This document shows, piece by piece, positions 20,030-63,374 of a stretch of 64,000 bases of DNA (positions are counted from its first letter, which is position 1; the number at the start of each line of letters is the position of its first letter). This DNA comes from Whalleya microplaca (Eukaryota; Ascomycota; Sordariomycetes; Xylariales; Xylariaceae). Made by a program: the position numbers and the translations under genes. Where the stretch lies: positions 62,001 to 126,000 of the forward strand of contig MU385737.1 of NCBI GenBank assembly GCA_022497155.1, in the 5' to 3' direction. Below the pieces are notes generated by a model. The model searched no databases. It saw only the letters and a program-made list of their open reading frames with translations, and was not told where the DNA came from.

Positions 20030-21540
20030 GATGATGTTGTTAAGTTGCTTGAGGGAAGATTTGACCCAAGGGGTAAGATTCCAACGAAACTCTTTTCATG
20101 GGTTTTTGGGGACGCAAGGGATTACGCTGTTCAATTAGAAAGCTCCACGCTCCAACACTTCTGTTGGTTCAGAATCATGATTACTACCCAGTGGATCCGA
20201 GCGTCGTGTCATCCCAGGGCTAGTCCTGTACTTCGCCAAGACCGACTCAAGAAATTCGACGACGCAGCACTCAGGTGAGAGTTTCCTTTGATTATTCACT
20301 TTAACATGTTTGTTGAAGATATAATGAGTGTCAAATTCAGTCGTTTCTATCAGCGTCAATCCCATAATGTTCTTCCATCAATTCGTAGTTCCTACGAGGA
20401 TTGGAAGAAACTACCCCTATTGTGGTTGACATCAATATTTTGCCTTCCTAGTATAGGCTTAGCGAGGAACAAGATGTCCGAATACTTACATATCCGGACG
20501 GCACTGGTGAGTCATCTCAGCGAGACTATAGCTGGCAAGGAAACCGCCTTTGCCATTTGCGCCGGCTCTATTACCTACCTATTGCATAAAGCTATTTCAT
20601 CTTGTGTGTACCATCTAACATCTGACCATCTTATGCGTAATAAATGCCCATATTGAGCGGTGCTAAAAAGTAATGTGACCATATAAGACTTCATGTTATC
20701 ATTCAAGATGGAATACCTTCATTCATAAGTAATAGTGTTTGCTACCGTCTGATAAGATATACAGGGGGCCGTTGCCAGGAATTGTAGTTTAACATAGCCT
20801 CCAAATATTGATATCAGTCGTCAAGTATAACATGAACACGATCATAAATATATCGCAGGAATGTCTGGAACAAAGGGGTGATTTAATAGTCAACCGACCC
20901 AAGACTAGAAATGAGGACCTCATAAGAAATTAAGTATACGTTCTATGCCATGGGGAGAACAGAAGAGCTAACAAGCTTTTTTTCTCACAACGCTATGACT
21001 AATATAACTCATTGTCACACGGGGATTGAAGCCAAGACCTGTTGGAAGTTATACGAGATGTAGGAACGCTGCAGGAATTCATATATTGGGTGCTGTTGGC
21101 TGTTATTCGATATTGTTGGAATGTATAACTACCTAACAAAAGGCATAGTAACCTAACGACGGCTGCGCCGGCAACAAACAAGATACGTATCACAGATACG
21201 TACTATCAAAGAGATCTACATAAGGACCTATCGCCTCCCATTAGATTTAGACCAGCAAGCACCATCAGTGGCCCTAGATGAATCATTAGCAAATTGATCT
21301 ATCCCAAGCCCTACAGTACCCCTTGTTACACTCGTTCATTTGGTGATCGGGTATGTATAAGATACCTGTGGCGAGTATAGCAGTCTTCTACAAGGGAGGC
21401 TTTTAGTTAGCAAACAGTATTGTGGCAATTCACAGTGTCTCGTGCCTGGGGTTATATAATTCTCATACTCGTTACGACGTCTAGAGGCACCACAGTTGAT
21501 GATTAGTCTCAAGTTCTGGTATCTTGACGCCTAGATAAGA
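20030..21540. other. Intergenic region upstream of the STAND gene
   Basis: About 1.5 kb with no confident gene. A plus-strand frame at 20288-20656 is open for 122 codons but shows no recognisable motif. The distal part is the 5' flank of the STAND gene. Confidence 0.4.
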
Positions 21541-24500
21541 ATGGCAGATAAACCCATTCCTACAATACTTGTGAAGCCAAAGAAGCTTTCCCCCATTGCA
21601 TGGGCCAGAAAAAAGACTCTCCGAACTAATCAGCCAGTGACGGCTGAATCCAGCTCTTCATCGAAAGAAGCTGGGCATCCCACCACATACCAGAGTTCCG
21701 GAACTCAGACTATCGACACAGCCACGAAAAGCTTGGTCGATCCCCTCATTACCAACGAACAAATATCAGCGACCACATCTACTGCCCCAAAAGAACAACA
21801 AAAGACCACCCTGAGACCTCATGTTGGACCTCTTATTGAGCCTCAGGGTCGAAATGAAGCTTCTCTCTTCACGAGCTCCCATCTCGGCCATGATTTCGAG
21901 AAGCATCTCGATTCTTCCCCGCCGACTCTCGTACATGTCAAGGAGAAGAGGACATTGTGGGACGACGCGTATGACCTGATAAAGCGCCGAGATAGGTCTA
22001 TAGTCCGTTGGTACGAGACGATTATCTCAGGCGATCTCCAGCATCCGGCACCCGAAATAGCGCCTCGAAGTCGGTCGTCAGAGCCTATCGAAAATATAAT
22101 CAGCCAGAGGGATTATTTGTTTAGACGGCAGCAGATGAATAGACTCCTCGGTGGCTGGTTTGATGGGAGTGATGTAGACGGGTGGACTCACACAGATGTT
22201 TATGAACATGAAAGTGACGTGTCGCTTCTGTCATATAGAGAGATCTTCGCCAAATCACAGGGGAAAGGGTGCCCAGGAGCAGTTATTGCCTGGGTTGCAG
22301 CCTGTTATGGCTCACAGGTAAGCATACTCTTGATTACTTTATGGGGAAACTAAATATATGTAGATACTTCAAACCCCAACATCCGCAAATGAGAATGATT
22401 GCTCAGGAATAATCTATGTCATCTCGCGAATGGAATGGTATGACCTTCTTTCAAGGCTATCCATGGGCGACAAGGAAGACAATTCACCGGATCCAGCGCT
22501 TCGGAATCGAACTTTAGACCTATATGCCGTTGTTCTTTCATATTTGATGAAAGTAACATGCTTTCACTTCAACGAACCGGACTTCAACTTCCCGATTGAG
22601 GTTATATATGGAAAGCCGACCTTGGAGGGGATAATCGAAGCAGAAAAAGCTTTATCTCTGTTCAACGAGAAATTAGTCAAAAATCCGCTTGAGATGCTAT
22701 TAGACGCAACGAGAACTGAGCAGACGATATATAAAGATACAGCCGGGGAACAACCTGTGAGGAATGGTGGGTTGATAGAAGGCCTACACGTGGTAGATCC
22801 CAGACCAAGATACATGGACACCACAGATCCAAATCAAATGCAGGCGATGAATGAGGTTTATAACTGGCTTCTCAAGAGACGTGAGTACCATGATTTCAGA
22901 GAGTGGAGTAAGTCAGACAGCCGCATACTCTTAATCAACGGACCACCTGGTCAAGGCATGACCTTGCTCCTAAATGGAGCAGTCCAAGCACTGCCCAAGG
23001 AACCTGATGCGAAATGTCTATCCTTCTTTTTCTTCGAATATGGTAACTCAGAGTCTAATAATGCGGCGGCTGCATTGAGGAACCTTATGTGGCACATTCT
23101 TGTTCAGCAACCGTCACTTGAAATCCACCTGAAACAGAAGTACGACACTACTGGCAGAAAGGAATTCAATCACCCGAATGACTTCATTGCATTATCAGCA
23201 GTCTTTTATGCTATGATACAAGATCAGAGCTTTCCGGAGACATACTTGATTATTGACTCCTTGGATGAATGCGCCTACAATGGCGCATGGGTTGGATTGG
23301 ATGCCCTCGTGGACTTGATTGTCATGTCGACATCATTGTCCACTCGCGTTAGATGGCTGGTATCGAGCAACTATGACGAGCCCATAAAGTCCAAATTCGA
23401 AACATGTGGGGGCCAGTATCTAGACTTGGGCCCAAATGTGCATGGCTCGCACGTTGTCATGCAAAACTACATCAAATATAAGGCGTCGAAGTTAGCCGTA
23501 GACAAGTCTTACGACAATGAACTCGAGACTACCGTCGTAGACAGACTCTACAAGCAGGGTCCAGACAATTATCTCTGGGTGGACATTGTCTGCGAAGCCC
23601 TCCGATCCGAAGAGATTTGGTATGTCGAAGACTTTATGAAGGAACTTGAGGTGCGCAGAGATCTGCCGAGTCTGTACAGCTATTTACAAGATGAGCTGAA
23701 CAGTGCCCATCAGCAGAAGGATAGAGACTTTTGCTTTGATGTGCTCTCAACCTTGGCTGTCGTCCACCAGTCGTTACATCTTAGTGAGCTAAAACATCTT
23801 GTATCCTGGCCTTGGCGAGTAGATCTGAGGGCGATATTGCGGAACTGCTCAGGTTTCCTCCAAGTGCGAGATGGTGTGGTATCGTTCCAACATCGGTCAG
23901 CAAGAGACTATGTCAGGAGACATATACTTGACTCATCCAAAACTTCGGAGACCCATGCAAAGCTCACAAACCTTTGCCTCAAATATTTGGCAAGCCATCT
24001 GGGCAATAATCTTTACTTGTTGCAAGATGGCCTTCGAACTCAACCCGTACCAGTGCCTACTGTAGCCAGTAGCTACGCATCGTTACATTGGATGATACAC
24101 CTGACAGAGATATCAGACATGGACAATAATACTAATATCTTGGATATAGTCCATTCATTTATGAACGGGCACTTCCTAATCTGGGTGGACGCGCTCAGTA
24201 CAGCAAAGAGAATATCCCAGGCGACGATACGATTACAGCAAGCGGACTTCCATCTCCAACAAATGGTGAGTTACGCGGCGCGGCGTTAGGTTTGTTTTAC
24301 GCTAGGAGCATTTTCCCATATATATGTATGTTTTATAACTGTGGAAAGCATAACACTTACGAGTTTATAGTATATGAAAGAGACAGCAGATGATGATCTA
24401 AATGATCTCTGTGATTTAATTCACGATGCCCATTTGTTCCTCCAGCTCCACCAATCAACCAACAGCCCGAGTGATCTACCTGCATCGAATACGCTCTTAT

Positions 24501-26647
24501 TCTGCCCGGAAAATAGCTTTACAAAGAAAGCATGGTTTCCACGGGCTTTTCCTTGGTTGTCTGATTCACCTGTGATGGATCAACACTGGAATTATAACTT
24601 CACGAATTTCCGCGGGCATACGGGCTCGGTGACTGACAATGCTATTTCTTCCGACGGTCAAATCCTAGCTTCCGGCTCTGAAGATGGTACAGTACGGATC
24701 TGGGACACCCAAACGGGTACCACGCAGCAAACATTATCCGTCGGACGAAACGCCGAGGTAATCCGTGTCGCCGTCTCCAAGAGAACTGTCGCAGCCAGCT
24801 CGGACGAAAACCTCGTCGTTGTGTGGGATATATTTACAGGTTGCGAATTAGGAACGCTGTCTCATGTCAAGTATACGCATGCGCATGCCCTTTGCCTTTC
24901 CTCGGCTGGCGACAAACTCGCGGTCTCCTATGATCGGTCTGTACAGATATGGGATGTTGATGGAAAGCAAGACAATTGGCGACATTCAGAGGTCAAGGAA
25001 TATCCCAGCCGCGTTCATAGCCTAGAATTTTCGCAAGATGGGATGCTCCTCCTGCTCGGAGTGTCAGATATGATTGAGATTTGGGACATAAACAATCATT
25101 TGATTCGAGAAAAGTTTGAAAGTCCTACGGCGATCACATGTGCTGTCTTCAGCTCCTACAGTATTGGAGAGAAGAAGCTTATTGCATCGGGTTTAGCTGA
25201 CGGGTCTGTCTGTATCTGGAAGACTGACAGTGAGCCCGGCTACAAAGGGACGAAGCCCTTACAGGTTGCAGAAATAGCCAACGCCCAGAATGATCCGTCA
25301 GATAGTACGAGAGAGGGAAAATTAGAAGTGGCCAAAGAAATTAGCGCAGTCACGACAAAGCCGACTCAGATTCTAAGAGGCCAGCCCGGGAGTCCTGGAA
25401 ATACCGGCATTAGGGTTCGCTCGATGGCATTTTCACCCGATGGCCTCCGACTGGCCTCCGCTTCTGGGAATACCATCGACATCTGGGACATTACTACGGG
25501 CACTAGGTTGCGTACTTTCCAGACGTCAGGCTCGGATACCTTTATCGTGGTTTTCGCATCCCCTGATGGCGCTTACCTCGCCTCGAATTCCCTTGATAAC
25601 AACGTGCACCTGTGGAATGTGGCAGGCAGACCCGAGAAGGCGCTCCCGGACACCACATCTAAGCGAAAAGCTATAAACGAACTCGCCATCTGTCCGCAGA
25701 AGAAGATGATAGCTGGAGCGCGGTTAGGTGGTTTGGTCGTTTTGTGGGACTTGGAGAGCAAGGCGCTCATTCCCCGTGAAACGCAGTTGAGGCATACGGG
25801 TAACGTGCGCTTGCTAGCATTCTCTCCTAATGAAGGTGAGAAACTACTCTCAGCCTCGGATGATGGCACGGTTCAAGTGTGTGACGTTGCAACGGGAAGT
25901 CGGTTGCACATATTCAAGGGCCACAAAGACTGGGTTCGCTATGCAGCATGGTCGGCAGATGGGTATTATGTGGCATCAGCGTCTGATGACGGCTCCGTCC
26001 GGATATGGAAGATCGGGGGCAAGGAGGAGGTAGCCCCAACGCAAATCCTAGATGGGGCGCATGAGGGGAGTTACGCGAGGGCAGTGGCCTTCTCTCCAGA
26101 CGGAAAATACCTTGTGTCTGGCGGAAGCGACAAGAAAGTGGTAGTCTGGGAGCAAATCAAGCATGGAGTTTGGGAACGCAAAGGGATACCTCTCGACGGC
26201 CACACTAAGCCCGTCGACAGCGTCTTAGTTACGCCTGACTCAAAGCATGTGCTATCTGCTTCTATTTTCGATACAACTCTAAGGATGTGGGACCTAGGGA
26301 ACAGAGAAGAGACGCAACCACCGATCAGAATTGACTGGGTCGACTCTAAGATGTGGTGGTATCCTCCTGTCCCCCACGGCCAAGGAACTCCCAACTATGT
26401 AATGACTCCTCAAGGTGCTCAACCCCTGGGGTTCTCCTTGCCAGAAACATCTAAGGCCCAAACGCCGAATTATTGGCGCCTCCGGTATAACCGCAAAAGC
26501 AGCGGCTGCTGGATCACGTCCAGGGATAAGGACGTTATTTTCTTCCCGAAGGAGTTTGTTCCTAGGTCGTCTCTAGTCCTGGGAGAAAGGGCGGTGATAG
26601 GTACAAGGTCAGGAGATATATATGTGTTTGGGGCTTCAAATGGTTGA
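21541..26647 (+). CDS. NACHT-WD40 STAND protein (NWD type), Walker A lysine replaced
   Basis: Large NLR-like signal-transduction ATPase, 1,651 aa. Exons: 21541-22317, 22364-24265 and 24371-26647; introns of 46 and 105 nt have GTAAGC and GTGAGT donors. Splicing gives CYGSQ+ILQTPTSANEN and FHLQQM+YMKETADDD. Residues 1-145 are Ser/Thr-rich and disordered. An NWD-type N-terminal domain follows (LWDDAYDLIKRRDRSIVRWY). The NACHT P-loop at about 452-459 reads GPPGQGMT: the lysine that normally contacts ATP phosphates is Met (ATG codon at 22958). Walker B (LIIDSLDEC, about 555) is intact. From about residue 970 there are roughly twelve WD40 units, the clearest being FRGHTGSVTD ... VRIWDTQTG and FKGHKDWVRYAAWSADG ... 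VRIWKIGG. These units are diverged, unlike the near-identical repeats of HET-D/E. The family acts in non-self recognition and programmed cell death. No effector gene is adjacent. Confidence 0.9.
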
Positions 26648-52781: not shown

Positions 52782-52910
52782 AGCTTCATGGCGCAGCGGA
52801 AGCGGTATGTTATATAAACTCGTCACCCTCACCTTGAACATTTAACTAACAAACATTACAGCGCCGGGCTCATAACCCGGAGGTCCTCTGATCGAAACAG
52901 AGTGAAGCTA
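52782..52910 (+). tRNA. Initiator tRNA-Met (CAT), with an intron in the D arm
   Basis: Exons are 52782-52804 (23 nt) and 52862-52910 (49 nt), giving a 72-nt tRNA. Acceptor stem AGCTTCA/TGAAGCT (seven pairs) with discriminator A; D stem GCGC/GCGC; anticodon stem CCGGG/CCCGG around CTCATAA (anticodon CAT); T arm CTCTG-ATCGAAA-CAGAG. A1-U72, three G-C pairs in the anticodon stem and A54 in the T loop are the standard marks of the eukaryotic initiator. The A box (TGGCGCAGCGG) lies wholly in exon 1 and the B box (GATCGAAAC) in exon 2, and a T run follows. There is no intron at the usual 37/38 site. The 57-nt insertion breaks the D stem between its 3' strand bases 24 and 25, so the unspliced molecule cannot be functional. 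Confidence 0.9.
52805..52861 (+). other. Spliceosomal-type intron within the initiator tRNA gene
   Basis: 57 nt with GTATGT at the 5' end, TTAACTAAC (branch site) ending 11 nt before the 3' end, and ATTACAG at the 3' end. Exact GT-AG removal restores a perfect cloverleaf. Size and signals are those of the protein-coding introns in this window. Only one alternative boundary is possible (shift by one G), and it would give GG-CA ends. Confidence 0.82.
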
Positions 52911-52918
52911 GTGCTCAA

Positions 52919-52926
52919 TTTTTTTT
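52919..52926 (+). terminator. Pol III terminator (T8) of the tRNA gene
   Basis: Run of eight T residues starting nine bases after the tRNA 3' end, the normal RNA polymerase III stop signal. It implies Pol III transcription of the gene despite the mRNA-like intron. Confidence 0.8.
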
Positions 52927-60621: not shown

Positions 60622-62376
60622 TCAAGACACCCGGGCGCTCATAAACCTAGGTGGGTCTCTGAATGTCACATCCACGACGACTTCTTGTTGCCCAAAGAGA
60701 TTGAAGAGACGCTGACTTTCAACCCAAATCCATGGTGTTCTTTCCTCCTTTATGTAGGCTTCCAACGGTTTTCCGTATGCCTGTCGCAGCCGGTTATGAA
60801 GCGATTGCAACGAAGACGCAGTGTTACAACATGCGCAGGAGTGATTGCTTAACTCTCCAAACAAGCAGCTCCATTCACGTTGTGATGCCATTCGATTGCT
60901 GACTTGCAATTTAGGGTCAACAACAGTGGTATGTTCCCAATCTACCGGGCACCCATCTTTGTCCCAGTATATTGAGAAAAAGACCGTGAGGTTGTCACTT
61001 GATAATAATTGATGAGATAGGGTTGAGATGCCTCGACTCTTGAGCACTCTCATGTAGAGATCCCCCAGGGGATAAACTTCCTTGAACATGCGGACTCGAG
61101 GAAGCATAATTCCGGAAGCAACAGTAAAGAACAATCCTGAAGACATCAATGCTAGATGCTTTTCGGGAGCATTGGTGGGGATGAAGTACGGTGCACCTAT
61201 ACCTATGAAAATGTCTGTCAAGGTCGGATGTCCTGACTGCGGGTATGACTGATGGAGGAATATCTTCGAAGATGGGAGATGGCCTTTCAGATATTTTTGC
61301 TGGCCCAAACGTCGTAATGGGATCCAAACTTGGTATTGCCTGATAATTGAGATTGATTCAGGATTCATGATGTCTTGATCGCTCCTGCCTCGTAGCTCCC
61401 TGGCGCAGTTGAGTCCTGCCAGCACGACTTGGGTATCTAGAGTTTTAATTATAGGAACATTCATAGATATGCCCAAATTTGTAATAGAGTATGGGCTCGC
61501 CTCGATTTCGCTATCCCTAACGATAGATCCACATAAACGAAACCTAGTGGGTGATGATGCCAAAGAGCTCGTCCAAGGCTGAGAATTCGGATTCTGCAAG
61601 TCCCAAGCAAGAATACTTTGATCATCTGAGACTTTTATAATCTCCTGCTGTAGTCTACTGAACGCCTTCAGGCCCTCGCCATAGAGAAGCGGCATATTGA
61701 TGTCAAAGATGCCCAGTAAACAGTATGCAATATCCTCCTTCCTCGTCGTGTTCCGATCCGCAGCCCAGCTCATCCGCTGCGCAATGCTGTACTCCCGAAT
61801 AGTTTCTCGATCCATGAGTGCCCCAATATGGATCCGCGTAATCTCTGAAATCTGACCCGCGACAGTCTTCCTGTCCCCAAGGACCTTCCACTCGTTCGAG
61901 AAGAAGATCACATGCGTAGGAGCAAGTAACTCCTGCAGCGTCCAACCTCGCGTGAACCAGAGACTCTTTGCAAAACTTCCAGGCTGAGGCTTCGTCTCGA
62001 CGTCAAAGAGATATGCGTAGCAGACCTTGGAATCGCGGTACCAGGCATACATGGAATTAATCGCCTCGCTGAGTTCCGCGGAGCTTCTTTTATCGATACA
62101 GTTCGTGTCACACCACACGTATTGAAACCCGTCGGCGCGGGCACGACGACACGCGCCTATGATCTTGGCGTACCCGGACTTGCGAGTAATAGCCGCGTTG
62201 GTGTTGCTATTATGGTGGGGATTAGGGTTCATGTAAGAGGGAGGGTGCACGCGTTCCCACTCCTGGAAGGTGACTTCCTCACCGCGCCAGACGTGCGAGA
62301 GGATGGCATAGGGAGGCATCTTCGCGGGGTCGAAGAACTCCTGGAGCTCCAGGGTCTTGACGTCTATGAGGCGCAT
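60622..62376 (-). CDS. HET-domain protein (heterokaryon incompatibility family)
   Basis: 584-aa single-exon protein with an N-terminal HET domain, which relates to TIR domains and is used in fungal non-self recognition and cell death. It begins MRLIDVKTLELQEFFDPAKM. The three HET blocks are clear: PPYAILSHVWRGEEVTFQEW, then ACRRARADGFQYVWCDTNCI with DKRSSAELSEAINSMYAWYR, and LWFTRGWTLQELLAPTHVIF. The usual DTCCIDK is DTNCIDK here. A further block, EDIAYCLLGIFDINMPLLYG with EGLKAFSRLQQEII, is the standard continuation of HET proteins. The C-terminal 300 residues are not recognised and have no obvious repeats. No adjacent partner gene (for example NLR or patatin) is seen. Confidence 0.93.
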   Translation of the reverse strand: MRLIDVKTLELQEFFDPAKMPPYAILSHVWRGEEVTFQEWERVHPPSYMNPNPHHNSNTNAAITRKSGYAKIIGACRRARADGFQYVWCDTNCIDKRSSAELSEAINSMYAWYRDSKVCYAYLFDVETKPQPGSFAKSLWFTRGWTLQELLAPTHVIFFSNEWKVLGDRKTVAGQISEITRIHIGALMDRETIREYSIAQRMSWAADRNTTRKEDIAYCLLGIFDINMPLLYGEGLKAFSRLQQEIIKVSDDQSILAWDLQNPNSQPWTSSLASSPTRFRLCGSIVRDSEIEASPYSITNLGISMNVPIIKTLDTQVVLAGLNCARELRGRSDQDIMNPESISIIRQYQVWIPLRRLGQQKYLKGHLPSSKIFLHQSYPQSGHPTLTDIFIGIGAPYFIPTNAPEKHLALMSSGLFFTVASGIMLPRVRMFKEVYPLGDLYMRVLKSRGISTLSHQLLSSDNLTVFFSIYWDKDGCPVDWEHTTVVDPKLQVSNRMASQREWSCLFGELSNHSCACCNTASSLQSLHNRLRQAYGKPLEAYIKEERTPWIWVESQRLFNLFGQQEVVVDVTFRDPPRFMSARVS

Positions 62377-63374
62377 GGTGATAGATTGGAGTTTGAAGGA
62401 AATAGGGGGTAAGATGATGGACTATGGGGACGTGCTGATGACGGTGCAGACTGTGAGAGTCGATTTGAGAGCTCAGTGTGAGTTGGAGAGTATAGTTGAA
62501 ACTGGACTCGGGGGTCGGCCAGCGTCGCATGCGACTTGGCCTGGTATATGAGAGGACTACTCTCCATCTTGGGGCCGTGATCACGAAGATGACTTGTCCC
62601 ATGTTCAGTTCCTGTGTAGTTAGCTTGTAAGTGATATATAGGAAATGATAAGCTAAAAGCTAATTTGAACCTGATCATATTGAAGCATGCCCCTGATAAG
62701 TGACGACTGTTAAACCAAAGATTACGTTTTGACAGATCTAGAACCTAACGTCTGATAGAAGTAAATACTCAGACTTCAATGTCTGTGCCTCACTTCAAAG
62801 TGGACTAGAGAACGAAGCAAAACTCTTGAGGTGCCTCAAGGCGAAAAAAATGGGAGGTAGTAATCAGGATATCTAACGAGTATATCTTGGCGAGTGAGAA
62901 TTGTTAGATCAAAAACTCTCGGATAGGTCCAGGGAGTAAATACGTACCGAAGGACTGGACTAGAGAATGCAATATGTGACAGGATCAAGACATTCAACAA
63001 GCGCGAATCGACCAATTATGGTAGTAATTCAGTACTCTCGTTGGCTTTTACCCACCTCGAGGGCTGAACTAGAGTGTAGGGTAAATGTACCATAAAGTCA
63101 AGAGACCTAAGGGTAGAAAGTGATACTCAGAACATTCGATAACACACGCACCGCGATATAGGAAGAATTCGTGCTGGTATTCATGATGCCACTGCCTAGT
63201 TTCTTGAAAAGATTTGTTTGCGCCGCTCCTGATCAAACGCGATACATCACTTGCAGCTGAAACTCTTTTTTCTCTAAGCCTGTCTGTCGGAAAAGCCACG
63301 CCACACCTTCCTATAACATTACTCATAACATTTATACGATCACTTATTGACCCCTCTCTGTCTTTCTCTCTCTC
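62377..63374. other. Intergenic region
   Basis: About 1 kb between the HET gene 5' end and the AP-1 mu gene 3' end. AT-rich; no gene is supported. Confidence 0.45.

Follow-up and report, generated by a model that had tools for sequence, protein, structure and literature searches.

Spliceosomal-type introns outside the anticodon loop in three tRNA genes of Whalleya microplaca

Nuclear tRNA introns form a class that is removed by a protein endonuclease and are located mostly at position 37/38. The window analyzed here, a stretch of 64,000 nucleotides from the fungus Whalleya microplaca (Xylariales, Sordariomycetes; C28:62001-126000 in an assembly of 48.1 Mb and 114 contigs), carries a nuclear initiator tRNA-Met gene (iMet, 52782-52910, forward strand) that is interrupted in its D arm by a segment resembling an mRNA intron. 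What is this segment, and by which machinery could it be removed? The first-pass annotation had proposed that the exact excision of 57 nt leaves a perfect initiator tRNA, and this was borne out, since with 52805-52861 excised ARAGORN returned a full 72-base tRNA-Met(CAT).

Both exons lie on the forward strand. Exon 1 (52782..52804) supplies positions 1-24, i.e., the 5' strand of the acceptor, the 5' strand of the D stem, the D loop, and most of the 3' strand of the D stem, as delimited by ARAGORN on the spliced sequence and by two intronless paralogs. Exon 2 (52862..52910) supplies positions 25-73, with the last base of the D stem, the anticodon arm with CAT, the T arm, and the 3' strand of the acceptor, according to ARAGORN, Rfam, and the initiator paralogs. 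Inspection by eye of the spliced sequence and its fold revealed the features of a eukaryotic initiator tRNA-Met, with the CAT anticodon, an A1:U72 pair, an anticodon stem containing three G-C pairs, and a T loop with A54 and A60. Left unspliced, the gene is not recognized as such. ARAGORN called nothing when introns were disallowed and, when they were allowed, wrongly read it as Phe(aaa), placing an intron of 34 nt at 36, while the Rfam tRNA model gave 23.3 bits, below its gathering score of 29, so that the default scan of the window listed no tRNA.

The insert (52805..52861, forward strand) has the organization of a U2-type spliceosomal intron, with the signals and the 57-nt length already described in the annotation. 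It opens with the 5' splice site GTATGT (52805..52810), contains the branch site CTAAC (52846..52850) within AACTAAC, where 52849 is proposed as the branch A, 12 nt from the 3' end, and closes with the 3' splice site ACAG (52858..52861). A hand count on the standard tRNA numbering places it between positions 24 and 25, within the D stem and not at the canonical 37/38 position, again as annotated. The tRNA itself sets the ends of the insert to within one base, and one of the two placements is exactly GT...AG. In a 264-kb sample of the genome (both strands, window included), the strict signature (GTATGT, CTRAY at 9-18 nt, and YAG) was found in one of 525,606 57-mers, the window insert itself, and a looser form with GTRNGT was found in two. 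A BLAST search of the genome, in which the tool skips very common words, listed the intron itself alone, and an origin from an introner (a multicopy intron family) was rejected because no near-identical copy was listed. In Hypoxylaceae, which belong to the same order, the available text of PMC8469720 describes related introns that have recently multiplied and come to occupy new positions.

Size and signals are also alike to those of the mRNA introns in this DNA, another point of the annotation that we could confirm. An exon ORF at 379-1674 of the window matches the tRNA-guanine transglycosylase of W. microplaca (100% identity over 96% aligned). Its gene has one intron of 55 nt (GTGGGT...TACTGAC...GCAG, branch A at 12 nt from the 3' end), whose borders were set by matching the window exactly with the annotated protein, and all 485 aa of that protein could be rebuilt from the window. 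In the 264-kb sample, the signature GTRNGT/CTRAY/YAG was seen 46 times at lengths of 50-69 nt (window insert included), versus 22.8 expected from five Markov-model randomizations. Outside this range, the lengths from 40 to 159 nt made up ten more bins, of which those of 110-119 nt (15 versus 8.4) and 130-139 nt (16 versus 9.8) were raised and eight were near or below expectation. Ab initio prediction with looser criteria gave 74 candidate mRNA introns in this sample, surely with false ones among them; their lengths spread widely, with a median of 73 nt. The window also contains NACHT_N and NPHP3_N/NACHT ORFs followed by a WD40 ORF (21535-26644), an NLR-like gene that introns probably interrupt, and a HET-domain ORF (heterokaryon incompatibility) at 60625-62421.

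If this were the only type of initiator gene, as the annotation had considered, translation initiation would depend on the removal of the intron. The rest of the genome does not bear this out. BLAST listed three initiator loci (the window gene, C34:62702-62773, and C39:316990-317061), a signature pattern retrieved the same three, and the copies on C34 and C39 are intronless and intact; hence, translation need not depend on the window gene. Seven stem pairs vary among the three copies, all of them still paired, and no unpaired position differs. Against the C34 copy, the window gene has exchanged two whole base pairs of the T stem, 48:64 and 51:61 of the 72-mer (C:G and T:A in the window gene), and is otherwise identical; from the C39 copy it differs at seven pairs, so that its spliced product could be told apart from both. 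One of the two T-stem pairs is the same in C34 and C39, and its change therefore most simply occurred in the lineage of the intron-bearing gene. When the C34 initiator was substituted at random, four changes were all pairing-preserving in 81 of 300,000 trials and two changes in 3,888 of 300,000. The pair-preserving changes may predate the insertion.

We found two further tRNA genes with inserts of the same type. The first, a tRNA-Lys(CTT) gene (L077:101-235, equivalent to C41:306943-307077), was found among 60 retrieved Rfam tRNA matches and is interrupted in the T stem, at 52/53, by a 62-nt GT-AG intron with GTAAGT, TACTAAC 13 nt before the end, and GAAG. ARAGORN finds a full Lys tRNA without the insert and nothing with it. 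Three other Lys(CTT) genes lack the insert; the differences among the four are all pairing-preserving, and a single paired change separates the interrupted gene from its nearest paralog. The two copies on C32 are distinguished from it by pair 4:69, and the copy on C18 by pair 7:66 and position 68. The second, a tRNA-Ala(CGC) gene (L103:425-571, equivalent to C38:93566-93712), was recovered by pattern search and Rfam and has a 19-nt intron at 37/38 plus a 56-nt GT-AG intron at 47/48 (GTAAGT, GGCTAAC at 13 nt, and TTAG). It is located ca. 0.4 kb downstream of an Ala(CGC) paralog lacking the 47/48 insert, from which it differs, with both introns excised, by one swapped pair (6:67).

Excision of each insert leaves a full tRNA that matches its insert-free paralogs (in Ala, once the 37/38 intron is excised too). 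All three inserts have the extended GT 5' site and the AG 3' site of U2-type introns at exact exon borders. Their lengths (57, 62, and 56 nt) fall within the mRNA intron size of this genome, as given by the excess at 50-69 nt and the proved 55-nt intron, and the distance from the branch A to the intron end is 12 (iMet), 13 (Lys), and 13 (Ala) nt, compared with 12 in the proved mRNA intron of the window. The combination of GTRNGT, CTAAC at 9-18 nt, and AG at exactly 57, 62, or 56 nt occurred one, four, and one times, respectively, in approximately 525,000 positions each; the single 57-nt occurrence is the window insert, and the Lys and Ala loci lie outside that 264-kb sample. The three inserts are mutually unrelated, having in common the splice motifs and strings of 6-7 bases alone, and the genome search made with the initiator insert gave no template. 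The presence of such introns at other positions in two other tRNA genes makes the spliceosomal-type reading of the initiator insert stronger, and the sequences now strongly support what the annotation had put forward for the D stem.

The numbers of genes given here are lower bounds, because the searches scored the best candidates only. The Rfam tRNA search of the genome scored the best 63 of 1595 candidates and gave 61 matches (the same 61 at an E value of 10), 60 of which were retrieved for inspection, the one on C48 being left out. BLAST with 46 of the fungus's own tRNA sequences, in which the best 40 of 75 candidates were scored, added four loci to the Rfam set. With the window and Ala genes, the genome has at least 67 tRNA loci, at least three of them with mRNA-type inserts. 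The list is incomplete, since the Rfam search, with the best 63 of 1595 candidates scored, missed the window gene and the Ala(CGC) gene, and the anticodons Gly-GCC, Phe, Cys, and Trp were uncalled among the 60 retrieved matches. The absence of these expected anticodons is probably a limit of the search, and further genes with unusual introns may hide behind them.

The genome was also searched with two sequence patterns. An A box followed by GTAHGT gave 14 matches, the window gene among them, versus 16 for the backward control. Two of the 13 others had a B-box-like string within 230 nt (L084 with the loose form, L085 with the strict one), and both were discarded, as no tRNA exons were seen by eye in either. 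The pattern CTAAC...AG...GTTCRANYCC gave 25 matches versus 34 for the control. Besides the Lys gene, eight of the 25 were retrieved, of which one (Ala) was a tRNA by Rfam, and the remaining 16 were judged by eye from the matched text alone. Four matches (C60:249332, C64:217636, C68:151265, and C73:76135) have much the same terminal string, GAGTTRGGTTCGATTCC, and may represent a dispersed repeat in which part resembles a B box; the two of these loci that were retrieved (L097 and L102) had no Rfam match. The lone match among the genome contigs searched for relatives was in a bacterial MAG and was taken as chance, with no tRNA 3' part seen by eye. A collection of viral contigs matched neither the exon-intron junction nor an intronless fungal initiator and is thus uninformative on relatives.

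The window gene has the A box, B box, and T run of a Pol III type 2 gene. By the consensus of such boxes, they are TGGCGCAGCGG (A box, 52789..52799), intact and upstream of the intron, and TGATCGAAACA (B box of the initiator type, 52889..52899), both on the forward strand. The gap from A to B is 89 nt, or 32 nt without the intron. A terminator-like run of eight T (52919..52926, same strand) lies 8 nt past the tRNA. Transcription by Pol III seems likely, given the intact boxes and the nearby T run. The inserts spare the boxes in the other two genes as well: that of Ala lies between them, and the last G of the Lys intron completes GGTTCGA at the DNA level, and therefore the B box is whole. The T runs of these genes are more distant, T9 at 50 nt in Lys and T7 at 27 nt in Ala, which weighs against an explanation that combines Pol III with the spliceosome. 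Folding of the unspliced initiator precursor in silico gave the acceptor and T stems, but hardly any D stem (≤0.05) and a weak anticodon stem (0.14-0.26); five of the six bases of the 5' splice site and four of the five CTAAC bases are mostly paired. The folding program draws the anticodon stem wrongly for the mature tRNA, too, and the modeled precursor neither proves nor rules out splicing.

Considering that three genes carry full signals, spliceosomal removal is the simplest route. We infer from the sequences that U2-type spliceosomal introns were gained by Pol III tRNA genes at least three times in this genome and are excised by the spliceosome to leave ordinary, functional tRNAs, an explanation that we consider probable. 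One of the three initiator genes would have gained such an intron; Pol III would transcribe it from the intact A and B boxes and stop at the T8 run; and the spliceosome would act with U1 at GTATGT, form the lariat at CTAAC, and ligate the exons at ACAG, releasing the 72-nt initiator tRNA. The same gain would have happened at least twice more, at 52/53 of Lys(CTT) and 47/48 of Ala(CGC). Since the Ala gene keeps its canonical intron beside the 47/48 insert, a single precursor would need both splicing systems, the endonuclease for the former and the spliceosome for the latter.

The alternative that survives best, although we regard it as unlikely, is that these are dead or poorly used copies, in which introns entered redundant tRNA genes, the transcripts are unproductively spliced and degraded, and the loci are heading to loss. 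Each interrupted gene could indeed be dispensable, since insert-free paralogs exist for all of them (two initiator, three Lys(CTT), and one Ala(CGC) genes). However, damage would be expected in three decaying genes unless all were very young, and the exons of all three are without any unpaired or pair-breaking change relative to the paralogs compared; none has lost its splice signals or Pol III boxes, and each has a T run downstream.

A much less probable reading is that the tRNA splicing endonuclease removes these inserts as atypical substrates, in the manner of Cyanidioschyzon merolae or nucleomorphs. The D and T arms are among the sites outside 37/38 at which tRNA introns are known in some algae, and the available text of PMC3978253 and PMC4090602 attributes such introns to the endonuclease. 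They have a bulge-helix-bulge motif in C. merolae and are 3-24 nt long in Guillardia, and that text makes no mention of mRNA-type splice signals in them. When the motif (two 3-nt bulges, a central helix of 4 bp, and flanking helices at the junctions) was fitted to our three inserts alone, it was absent in iMet (central helix 3/4, outer 1/4, inner 2/4) and Ala (3/4, 1/4, and 0/4), while Lys had a possible central helix (4/4), which would suit the endonuclease, but weak flanks (outer 2/4, inner 2/4). Many of the ectopic introns of Guillardia lack a defined bulge-helix-bulge, as described in the same sources, and therefore its absence is not decisive. The comparison with the canonical introns of W. 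microplaca, which also interrupt nuclear tRNA genes, tells against this reading. ARAGORN called 31 of them, in the anticodon loop and 8-39 nt long, after one 93-nt call of the original 32 had been dropped for lying off the Rfam match of its locus (L023); others were uncalled or shortened (L031, L061, L064, L067, L069, L048, and L053). These 31 lack the GT/branch/AG signature: only one can be shifted to GT...AG, and the branch motif is absent there. In contrast, all three inserts have 5', branch, and 3' signals at mRNA geometry, which endonuclease introns do not need. Finally, an assembly or sequencing artifact is scarcely credible, given that the loci lie on three different contigs (577, 484, and 498 kb), with inserts unrelated to each other, no other listed copy of the initiator insert in the genome, and full splice signals three times over.

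U6 is a Pol III transcript. Its introns in fungi, together with those of U3 snoRNA, resemble the ones proposed here in being mRNA-type introns in small structured RNAs, and U3 and U6 were, as of 2017, the only such RNAs known to be often interrupted by introns, at least in the available text of PMC5832005, which also describes genomes that hold both intron-bearing and intronless U3 copies. The difference lies in the host, here a tRNA, the introns of which are otherwise removed by a protein endonuclease. U6 introns have been gained repeatedly (PMC4829304, as reported in a citing paper), and the U6 gene of Schizosaccharomyces pombe escaped a covariance search on account of its intron, as our window gene did (PMC10581693, in the text available). 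In W. microplaca, the only U6 match listed, with the best 47 of 2566 candidates scored, is 103 nt long and intronless. The nuclear rDNA introns of lichen fungi are similar in being short spliceosomal introns (one of 57 bp in Cladonia grayi) of a stable RNA that Pol II does not transcribe, although their host is a Pol I rRNA rather than a Pol III tRNA. According to the portions of PMC8527467 available, a lichen intron of 57 bp that had been moved into yeast rDNA was excised from the Pol I rRNA by yeast spliceosomes, and the slow growth there is modeled in the paper. Among the matches listed in a search of the open-licence literature, outside of which most subscription papers fall, no title or abstract described nuclear tRNA genes as carrying spliceosomal introns.

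The genome of W. microplaca thus has three tRNA genes with mRNA-type introns, each at a different site outside 37/38. If they are spliced, the spliceosome is able to process tRNA precursors made by Pol III in which the first exon measures 23 to 65 nt, excluding any leader. Intron gains with insert-free paralogs at hand are also material for studying the origin of introns. Since gene finders miss such genes, fungal tRNA counts may be incomplete if the genes are spliced. On balance, and with less confidence than in the explanation of the three genes themselves, we favor the view that spliceosomal introns repeatedly invade Pol III tRNA genes in this lineage and would be tolerated through spliceosomal processing. 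Genes such as Ala(CGC) would then need the spliceosome as well as the endonuclease, which would tie part of the tRNA supply to mRNA splicing capacity, and standard finders, built to expect introns at 37/38, would overlook similar genes across fungi.
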